From the NCBI GenBank assembly GCA_027627225.1, contig CM051028.1, positions 19,297,201 to 19,361,200 of the forward strand: DNA of 64,000 nucleotides, written 5' to 3'. Below the pieces are notes generated by a model. That model saw only the letters and a list, made by a program, of their open reading frames with translations, was not told where the DNA came from and did not search any database. The position numbers and the translations under genes are program-made. Shown here piece by piece: positions 1-18,300 of the stretch (position 1 is its first letter; each line of letters begins with the position of its first letter). This DNA comes from Congeria kusceri (taxonomy: Eukaryota; Mollusca; Bivalvia; Myida; Dreissenidae).

Positions 1-235
1 CTCAGCCCTACTACCCTCGTACCTTGTTATCTCTGCCTCCTTCTCCCTGAAGTACTTGGAGAGCACAGTAACTCAACCCTACCACCCTCGTACCTTGTTA
101 TCTCTTCCTCCTTCTCCCTGAAGTACTTGGAGAGCAGAGTAACTCACCCCTACCACCCTCGTACCTTGTTATCTCTGCCTCCTTCTCCCTGAAGTACTTG
201 GAGAGCACAGTAACTCACCCCTACCACCATCGTAC
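1..235. repeat. 71-bp minisatellite duplicating the end of MIA3 exon 20 and its donor
   Basis: Donor-like GT dinucleotides fall at 234-235, 163-164, 92-93 and 21-22 on the minus strand, a spacing of 71 bp. Each unit repeats about 44 nt of exon 20 coding sequence ([14 protein letters not shown] in place of AELT), the AACAAG|GTACGA donor, and a short G-rich stretch with a second donor-like GGGGTGAGT. The array continues left of the window. Confidence 0.92.
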
Positions 236-374
236 CTTGTTAGCTCCGCCTCCTTCTCCCTGAAGTACTTGGAGAGCACCTCTAGCCGGGTCTGGGCCTC
301 CTGGCACTGCCGCTCTGCCTTCATCTTGTCTGTCTGACCCGTCTCCATCTGACGCTTCAGGCCCTGGATCTGGT
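236..374 (-). CDS. MIA3: MIA3 exon 20: second coiled coil; donor is repeated in a minisatellite
   Basis: Encodes residues 2138-2183 plus two nt, ending in [16 protein letters not shown]. The pattern matches the family phrase before the proline-rich tail. Acceptor CCATGCAG. The donor chosen, AACAAG|GTACGA at 235-234, is the first of at least four copies 71 bp apart running to the left edge. The following exons are outside the window. Confidence 0.88.
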
Positions 375-15300: not shown

Positions 15301-18300
15301 CTTGCTTAAGAATGTATCAACAGCATGTTTGTACAATATGAAGGCATACCCAGATATAGACTCGTTAATTTTTCAAAATGATAAACAAGAGGGCCAAAAG
15401 GACCTAGGTTGCTCACCTGAGAGGCTAAGGAACTTAAACTGTTCTGAGCAAGTTTTGTGATGATTGGCCTATAAATGTGGCGTCAAGAATGTTTTAAAGC
15501 TTTTTGTTCAATTTTGCCATGGTGACCTAGTTTTTTTACCCCACATGACCCAGTTTAAAACTTGTCCCAAGATATTATTGAAACAAATGTTCTGAGCAAT
15601 TTTCAAGAAGATCAGGCAAAACTAGAATTTTCACTTTTGTTTTCTTTTTGACCTAGTGACCTAATTGTTGACCACACGAGCCATTTTCAAACTCCGCCGA
15701 GATATCATTGGAACCAAGGATGTGGGCAAGTTTCATGAAGCCTTTTAGAGTGTTCACAAGCCTTTTAAAGTTTTCATTATACCCATATACTGAAAACTGC
15801 CCCGCCCCATGACGGCCACGTTTTTCAGCAGAGTGGAACCACTATCAAACTCAGCCAAGATATCATAAGAACAAATGTTCTGACCAAGTTTCATGAAGAT
15901 TGGGCAAAAAATGTGACTTCTAGAGTGTTAACAAGCTTTTTCTTCAATTTGACCAAGTGACCTAGTTTTTGACCCCACATGACCCAGCTTCAAACTTGGC
16001 CGAGATATCATTAAGACAAATGTTCAGACCATGTTTCATGAAGATTGGGCAAAAAATTTGACTTCTAGAGTGTTCACAAGCGTTTTCTTCAATTTGACCT
16101 AGTGACCTACTTTTTGACCCCAAATGACCCAGATTCAAACTCGGCCGAGATATCATTGGGACAAATGTTCTGACCAAGTTTCATTTGGATTGGGCAAAAA
16201 ATGTAACTTCTAGAGTGTTCACAAGCTTTTTCTCCAATTTGACCTAGTGACCTAGTTTTGACCCCACATGACCCAGTTCCAAACTCGGCCGAGATATCAT
16301 TGGGTCAAATGTTCTGACCAAGTTTCATGAAGATTGGCCAATAAATGTGGCCTCTAGAGTGTTCACAAGGTAAATGTGGACGACGCAGGACGCACAACAG
16401 ACAAAAGACGATCACAAAAGCTCACCATGAGCATGTTGTGCTCAGGTGAGCTAACAAAAAGTGGAATGCTAAAGACCCAAGCAAAAACTTAATGAAACCA
16501 TATTTCTCAAAAAATAAAGATTAAATATTCATGAAGCTGATTTTTTAAAGAAATAAATAACACAATCATTTCAATTTAGGTCTTTGTTTGTGAATATTTA
16601 ATGTTTCGTTTTATTTGACATGCCATTTTTATGAAAGAAAATGTCATCAACATGTGAAGACAAATTTAAATGTTCTGAAATCTTCCAGATTAAATTCACA
16701 GAAATTTAACAGAGTCACTGTGTAGCTTAATGTCAAAACTTGTTGTTACCTGTTTCACTTTTATCTGCAGGTCATCTTCTAGGTTTTCGTTCTCTTTTGT
16801 AGCAATAAATAACTTCTCTTCCAGGGCTCGAATTATCACTGCAATTGTACATATATATAGAATCCTTTGGTCAGGTTGACAAAATAATGTTTATCAGAGT
16901 AAAAGCCTTGAAGATATCTAAAATAACTAGTTAACCAATAATGTTTATCAGAGTAAGAGCCTTGAAGATATCTAAAATAAACTAGTTAACCAATAATGTT
17001 TATCAGCGTAAAAGCCTTGAGGATATCTACAATAAACTAGTTAACCAATAATGTTTATCAGCGTAAAAGCCTTGAAGATATCTACAATAAACTAGTTAAC
17101 CAATAATGTTTATCAGAGTAAAAGCCTTGAAGATATCTACAATAAACTAGTTAACCAATAATGTTTATCAGAGTAAAAGCCTTGAAGATATCTACAATAA
17201 ACTAGTTAACCAATAATGTTAATCAGAGTAAAAGCCTTGAAGATATCTAAAATAAACTAGTTAACCAATAATGTTTATCAGTGTAAAAGCCTTGAAGATA
17301 TCTAAAATAAACTAGTTAACCAATAATGTTTAACAGAGTAAAAGCCTTGAAGATATCTACAATAAACTAGTTAACCAATAATGTTTATCAGAGTAAAAGC
17401 CTTGAAGATATCTAAAATAAACTAGTTAACCAATAATGTTTATCAGAGTAACAGCCTTGAAGATATATACAATAAACTAGTTAACCAATAATGTTTATCA
17501 GAGTAAAAGCCTTGAACATATCTACAATAAACTAGTTAACCAATAATGTTTATCAGTGTAAAAGCCTTGAAGATATCTAAAATAACTAGTTAACCAATAA
17601 TGTTTAACAGAGTAAAAGCCTTGAAGCCTCTTACTTGGGAATTCCAGATATTGCTAACTTAAGGGTTTATTTATGAAAATAAACCAGTTGGAAAAACCAA
17701 GAAATTATTTTCTTTTTATAAATATATTTGTGGATCCAGTGCAAAGCGCCATATTGTTAACACATACAGAAGGCTTGGAATAGTATGTGATTTCATACCT
17801 ACTGGATCCTTCTTCCCCGACTTCTTCTTATCACCCTGGAATCAGTTAGAAAAGTTAAATTGTGTTATCATTGAATGTTTTTGCATGGTATGAAACAATA
17901 AAATTAACAATACAATTAAGAAACAAATCTGCTATAGATATATTTAAATATCAAATGTGCAACCATGGTTGTATGATATTCTGCATTTCTACAAAATTTC
18001 ATACTCCAATACTGAACAGCATCATAACAAATACATTCATAGCTGTAACATTTTTACTAGCTTTTCACTTAATCTTTCAACAAATGACTGACTGCTTAAG
18101 AATGATAATCTGACAATCAATCATCACCATTTCCATTGTCCTTAGAAACACTATAGAATATCCACATTCATAAATTAATCATGTAAATTTACAGTTGATA
18201 AACATCTATGCAAAGTAGCATACGCAAGTATAAAGATGTCAAATTTAGAAAATTTTCATAAGACAGAATAACACGAGTTCCCAATACCTTGCACATACAG

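Follow-up and report, generated by a model that had tools for sequence, protein, structure and literature searches.

Minisatellites overlapping three exon borders of a bivalve TANGO1 gene, probable relatives in kind of the amphioxus mirages

Introduction

Minisatellite-like repeats that span exon-intron borders are known as 'mirages' in amphioxus, where they have been described in Adh3 and in the globin genes BflGb6 and BflGb9; they are found at donors and acceptors alike, and regular splicing is apparently undisturbed by them (PMC3087553). The lancelet gene PGBD5 carries two border repeats, of 60 bp and 108 bp (PMC3902484). In humans, a minisatellite of IFI6 (6-16) is reported to give multiple splice donors (Turri 1995, cited in PMC4526556), and internal tandem repeats have been reported at exon-intron boundaries within segmental duplications (PMC2812944). 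For molluscs, searches of one open-access library found no mirage in the listed titles and abstracts.

The sequence considered here, referred to as the window, is a stretch of 64,000 nucleotides from the genome of a dreissenid-like bivalve. A preliminary description of it had drawn attention to five minisatellites in and beside the exon borders of a single gene, and had supposed that no gene with several splice-border minisatellites was on record, a supposition that the two arrays of lancelet PGBD5 contradict (PMC3902484). The mussel gene harbors a known kind of structure in a seemingly new lineage, and there is an unexpected hint, weakly tested, that such structures are common and biased towards exon borders there.

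The TANGO1/MIA3 gene

The gene is a TANGO1/MIA3 homologue on the minus strand (236..43037 within the window). Nineteen of its exons were placed in the window from splice signals and reading frame, and 8 more were modelled in the 20 kb preceding the window start, several of them with approximate borders, which brings the model to 27 exons with 52 internal borders. It may lack further small exons, because parts of the Dreissena polymorpha protein are unmatched. Positions before the window carry negative coordinates, so that the exon after 374-236 starts near -3479, and the exons numbered 15, 18 and 20 in the preliminary description are exons 14, 17 and 19 of the present model.

The search for relatives, in which 7979 candidates were scored and 42 proteins found, identified two TANGO1 models of D. 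polymorpha as the closest, with 89% identity over the 364-aa coiled-coil part, so that the DNA probably comes from a dreissenid. The D. polymorpha protein P0002 matches the gene piecewise between residues 1 and 2083, with gaps between the matching parts, and homology to an annotated TANGO1 is thereby given. An SH3-type luminal domain (PF07653) is listed for P0002; two single frames of the window have no Pfam match, the coiled-coil part finds solely Pfam matches under the curated cut-offs, and a search of the PDB returned no match. A 196-bp exon used as a query matches one place in the assembly, which was searched over 1.55 Gb and 1071 contigs.

Arrays at and near the exon borders

Tandem Repeats Finder (TRF) reported 44 rows for the window, all five of the arrays noticed earlier among them, and the splice signals and reading frame place three exon borders inside arrays. 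The coding exon at 12064..12168 (minus strand) terminates in GGAAACAACAG, and these 11 nt together with the donor open the unit of a 35-bp minisatellite (11382..12074, minus strand, 20 units), which overlaps the exon by the same 11 nt. The donor is supported by splice signals, frame and the alignment of relatives, and its sequence CAG|GTATGT is present in 19 of the 20 units, the used one included, and lost in one. The acceptor of the coding exon at 2693..2756 (minus strand), TTGCAG|GTG, belongs to the last unit of a 39-bp minisatellite (2753..3029, minus strand, 7 units by TRF) that reaches merely 4 nt into the exon. The acceptor AG is kept in 6/7 of these units, again including the one in use; the unit directly upstream of it (window 2795) reads CCG, and the next copy that bears an AG is 78 nt away. 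The third border is the donor AAG|GTACGA of the coding exon at 236..374 (minus strand), assigned on the same three lines of evidence as the first, which TRF places inside a 71-bp minisatellite (1..279 in the window, minus strand). The window start cuts this array, the full span of which is -1333..278 with 22.6 copies; it overlaps the exon by 43-44 nt, and GT is retained in all of the 22 units found, the exon-edge unit among them.

The two further arrays of the preliminary description are wholly intronic and start near acceptors, as had been stated. A 42-bp minisatellite with 86% match between units (391..832, minus strand; TRF reports 442-832, with a degenerate start near 391) begins upstream of exon 374-236, about 17 nt from its acceptor. 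A 55-bp minisatellite (16883..17626, minus strand, by TRF) lies upstream of exon 16838-16750, with its near end 45 nt from the acceptor there. The earlier statement that the units are mutually unrelated also holds: shuffle comparisons remained at chance level, the observed score being reached in 15 comparisons by at least 6/200 shuffles, and within the window each unit is restricted to its own array. Units differ from one another by substitutions and by one 7-bp deletion.

Several other repeats were seen along the gene. An unrelated 18/38-bp minisatellite (3077..3308, minus strand), wholly intronic, lies about 48 bp from the 39-bp array, and exon 2756-2693 has its donor inside a weak 10-bp repeat of 3 copies (window 2685-2713, TRF score 40). 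Before the window, the donor of the TANGO1 exon at -4649..-4684 is followed after about 10 nt by a long trinucleotide repeat (-5206 to -4695, L002).

That nothing similar occurs at the early exons is true of their borders, none of which is covered in exons 1-8 by standard TRF, but in-frame arrays are present inside exons 6 and 7. The coding repeats of the luminal exons comprise a 69-bp repeat at 23353..23516 (minus strand) inside exon 25848-23308, a 27-bp repeat at 25422-25485 and a 21-bp repeat at 26416-26461. All three periods found at standard TRF scoring are divisible by 3, as are those of 17 of the 20 in-exon rows, some overlapping, that looser scoring yields, a pattern in keeping with random arrays being sifted by selection according to reading frame.

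Comparison with described border repeats

The TANGO1 arrays share with the amphioxus mirages a repeat unit that spans the exon-intron border and copies that carry splice signals along, in the proportions given above. In the amphioxus mirages, the unit at the exon edge is set apart from the rest; the same is true of the 71-bp array of TANGO1 and not of the 35-bp array (PMC3087553). The differences lie in the host, here a dreissenid-like bivalve, and in dimensions, the border arrays of this genome having units of 35-92 bp and up to 22 copies. Splicing and polymorphism are reported for the amphioxus arrays in the same account (PMC3087553).

Lancelet PGBD5 resembles TANGO1 in having more than one border-overlapping tandem repeat in one gene. 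Its description gives two arrays, of 2-7 and 3-6 copies in two assemblies, compared with three arrays of 7-22 copies in TANGO1 (PMC3902484). IFI6 and TANGO1 are alike in that the minisatellite units contain splice donors; those of IFI6 are reported to serve as donors (PMC4526556), whereas the TANGO1 copies, viewed at the sequence level, give no sign of use. The repeats of human segmental duplications are likewise minisatellites, with an average unit of 30 bp, that alter gene structure and lie at exon borders too; they differ in belonging to recent primate paralogues and in that intron formation is claimed for them (PMC2812944). Splice-border minisatellites are not confined to amphioxus, and what might have been a one-gene curiosity becomes a statement that can be tested genome-wide.

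Splice-site copies and their use

The protein alignment comprised 18 of the 42 relatives found, with one species in several cases represented by more than one isoform or model. All 18 read seamlessly through the junctions KQQ|L, ELE|V and ELT|R and show no insert of a kind encoded by the arrays; the gaps of one Mya model (P0012) are located away from these junctions. Since the relatives have no insert at the three junctions, the copy of the splice site at the exon edge is most likely the one that is spliced. The exon-side part of the 35-bp and 71-bp units encodes residues common to the relatives, and for this reason the exon is probably the source of these units and the intron copies are derived from it. 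Use of any later donor of the 35-bp array would lead to a stop codon, and so would the three later 71-bp donors tested, which lie inside the window. If an earlier acceptor of the 39-bp array were taken, the protein would gain 26-78 amino acids in frame and without a stop, although an open unit of 13 codons would not be remarkable by chance. Recursive splicing through the 39-bp unit (CAG|GTGTGT) was considered and dropped, the donor half being weak.

The copied sites show no special conservation. The splice dinucleotide is lost in 1/20 copies of the 35-bp array, in 1/7 of the 39-bp array and in 3/8 of a myosin array described below (L027); in the 71-bp array the GT is invariant, yet 41 of the 74 columns are equally invariant. 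The copies do not look retained for their splice signal.

Placement within the gene

The preliminary description held it improbable that three arrays should fall on exon borders by chance, and this judgement depends on the background against which placement is measured. When the 31 arrays that cover 18.0% of the whole modelled gene are placed randomly, 5.54 border arrays are expected without constraint (P 0.97) and 2.22 if at most 50 exonic nt may be covered (P 0.39), against the 3 observed. For the 23 arrays with units of at most 100 bp the corresponding expectations are 3.08 (P 0.63) and 1.33 (P 0.15), so that within TANGO1 itself the claim finds no support. Two smaller regions that were tested first had given, with the constraint, P 0.18 with all arrays counted, and 0.04 and 0.06 when the count was restricted to short units. 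Limiting placement to 20 exonic nt lowers P to 0.0015-0.0155 within the gene, but this is an unfair null, because one of the observed arrays exceeds the limit. Seven arrays lie within 50 nt of a border, where four settings expect 2.78 to 7.28 (P 0.013 to 0.65, uncorrected); the lowest P, with 2.78 expected, belongs to arrays with units of at most 100 bp, which exceed expectation in this one of the four settings. The confinement of the border arrays to the coiled-coil half mirrors the distribution of arrays in general, since they cover 28.2% of window 1-17840 and 6.0% of 17841-43037.

Control exons and random stretches of the genome

Searches of the assembly with myosin-head and kinesin profiles gave 82 and 125 matches, from which 60 short stretches holding 48 of the 82 and 20 of the 125 were analysed, best E-values first; three apparent duplicates on C65 and three among the kinesins were skipped, and one lower-ranked myosin match lay in an analysed stretch. 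Control edges are the edges of profile matches, and some are therefore not true borders; flanks of about 700, 400 and 250 nt make large arrays beside kinesins less visible. Of the myosin exon edges, 5/96 lie in arrays by which the splice site is copied or at least touched, four of them donors, in arrays with units of 88 bp (L027), 92 bp (L033), 65 bp (L050) and 77 bp (L059, which merely reaches the last exon base), and one an acceptor, in an array with a 36/72-bp unit (L034). The first and the last of those named, L027 and L034, are 9 kb apart on one strand with their profile positions in order, and appear to be one myosin gene with two border arrays. None of the 40 kinesin edges, from the 20 of 125 matches sampled, lies in such an array, a difference from myosin that is not significant (Fisher P 0.32). 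Elsewhere, a 35-bp minisatellite at L044 779-1142 comes within about 37 nt of a myosin exon match; by eye, its unit is unlike the 35-bp unit of TANGO1. Some kinesin and myosin matches with identical scores were found at paired places (C4:80304754/86432646, C7:53837098/54562990, C1:84542086/98428066 and C15:41745271/C65:131018), partly in opposite orientation, and represent either recent duplications or haplotypes that the assembly has left uncollapsed.

With 3/52 border edges in TANGO1 and 5/136 in the controls (Fisher P 0.69; against myosin alone, P 1.0), the gene is not the exception it had been taken for. On this sample the gene-specific claim fails because overlaps are common at other exon borders of the genome, an outcome that the preliminary description had itself named as a refutation.

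The random background consisted of twenty 10-kb stretches, taken from ten contigs at fixed positions and amounting to 197,225 bases once N is left out. They contain 46 minisatellites with units of at most 100 bp, 13 of them at least 150 bp long; arrays of all kinds cover 7.8%. From the density of the 13 long arrays 0.54 control edges would be expected to be spanned, with up to 60 exonic nt covered, and 1.90 from all 46, against 5/136 observed (P 2.4e-4 and 0.044), the 60-nt exon window having been chosen after the overlaps had been seen. By the same densities TANGO1, a gene picked for its arrays, has 3 border arrays where 0.21 (P 0.0012) or 0.73 (P 0.038) would be expected, and it is against this background that the earlier judgement of improbable placement would stand. 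A near-edge test points the same way: among the long arrays of short units beside myosin exons, 5 of 7 have their end a little way within the exon (P 2.4e-4), and the result becomes 5/8 (P 6.7e-4) with the addition of a 149-bp array (L058), 5/9 (P 0.0019) with that of a kinesin array (L074) and 5/12 (P 0.006) with that of units over 100 bp. The GC fraction of the eight border arrays is 0.38-0.57, compared with 0.32-0.38 in 19 of the 20 random stretches. Arrays thus seem to favour exon edges in this genome, although the sample is small and the result is treated as a lead. Border-biased duplication or GC-rich seeding could explain the excess of border arrays in the control genes.

Interpretation

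The TANGO1 arrays are probably ordinary minisatellites, of the mirage type. Each would go back to a short tandem duplication that happened to span an exon edge. Slippage or unequal exchange would then have extended it into the intron, bringing many copies of the splice site along with it. The splicing machinery would take the copy that is joined to the full exon, and the others would be left as unused intronic decoys, which in two of the three arrays would destroy the frame. Selection would remove arrays that break exons and tolerate those at exon edges, as well as those inside coding exons with a unit that is a multiple of three. Three such arrays in TANGO1 are not exceptional, because the mussel genome is rich in them; 'just chance' is nevertheless not the whole story, because border arrays exceed the expectation from the density in random stretches.

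That the arrays have been kept because extra splice-site copies strengthen or tune the splicing of the coiled-coil exons, along the lines of one proposal in the preliminary description, is very unlikely. The dinucleotide is indeed kept in 19/20, 6/7 and 22/22 units and the upstream 39-bp acceptors would add their 26-78 residues stop-free, but the invariance of GT in the 71-bp array is matched by more than half of its columns, the acceptor copy beside the used 39-bp one is dead, copies elsewhere have lost the dinucleotide, premature stops would follow from every downstream 35-bp donor and from the three 71-bp donors tested, no aligned relative has such an insert, and myosin genes have arrays of the same kind. 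That the arrays are artefacts of assembly is highly improbable: tandem arrays are hard to assemble, but these vary by substitutions and a 7-bp deletion, arrays with other units sit at other exon edges, and the contigs encountered are 47-116 Mb long. Hardly credible is the creation of these introns by tandem duplication of an AG|GT segment, as in the intron gain of the Rogers type, a model proposed for the amphioxus mirages (PMC3087553). All three units do contain AG|GT at the border; that model, however, has the unit at both ends of the intron, and for the 35-bp and 39-bp arrays, two of the three, the partner border resembles the unit no more than chance would allow, the score there being reached by 20/300 and 118/300 shuffles respectively. 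For the 71-bp array the exon's own acceptor was compared in place of the partner border (110/300 shuffles). Two of the introns fall wholly within the window; they measure 3969 and 4226 nt and have the array at one end only.

A bias of tandem duplication or array expansion towards exon edges throughout the genome, through GC-rich edges or a process linked to transcription or splicing, with TANGO1 as one product, would be compatible with neutral mirage-type arrays and does not exclude them. It is a tentative proposal, somewhat more doubtful than not. Slippage biased to the borders had been one of the two explanations offered earlier, and it gains some support from the control genes, with the excess of spanned edges over both expectations, from the series of near-edge tests and from the GC content of the border arrays. 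Against it stand the absence of such arrays at all 40 kinesin edges, the small sample with its unequal flanks, post-hoc window and random stretches unmatched to gene regions, the fact that 9 of the 13 long minisatellites in random stretches also exceed their own stretch in GC, and the AT-richness of the 42-bp and 55-bp neighbours in TANGO1 (GC 0.31 and 0.27). It is conceivable, with rather less than even confidence, that minisatellites arise or persist preferentially at exon borders here, and that several percent of borders, by extrapolation thousands of introns, carry arrays of extra splice sites. Were this true, the lineage as a whole would parallel amphioxus and would offer a natural library for studying spliceosome choice among identical sites. 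The enrichment, if it holds, would link the biology of tandem duplication to exon edges. It would also provide many natural examples of competition among near-identical splice sites, up to about 20 at a time, with a correct answer to be expected in each.

Other repeats and mobile elements

Arrays with long units (137-167 bp) are dispersed in and around the gene, at 5668-6391, 12472-13476, 15845-16369, 32194-32665 and 40426-40927 of the window, and were also met in the stretches L010, L011, L012, L014 and L017; before the window, long-unit arrays have units of 163 and 173 bp. After two of the window arrays, near 6440 and 13490, comes sequence resembling 'ggacggacgg'. These dispersed arrays would perhaps be parts of mobile elements. 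Open frames of an LTR-type retroelement occupy 57171-62846 (minus strand). The frames 57171-58238 and 60778-61740 have no Pfam match; the segment 58387-60774 encodes reverse transcriptase, RNase H and integrase domains by Pfam, and 61710-62846 is a gag-like frame with a PNMA match.
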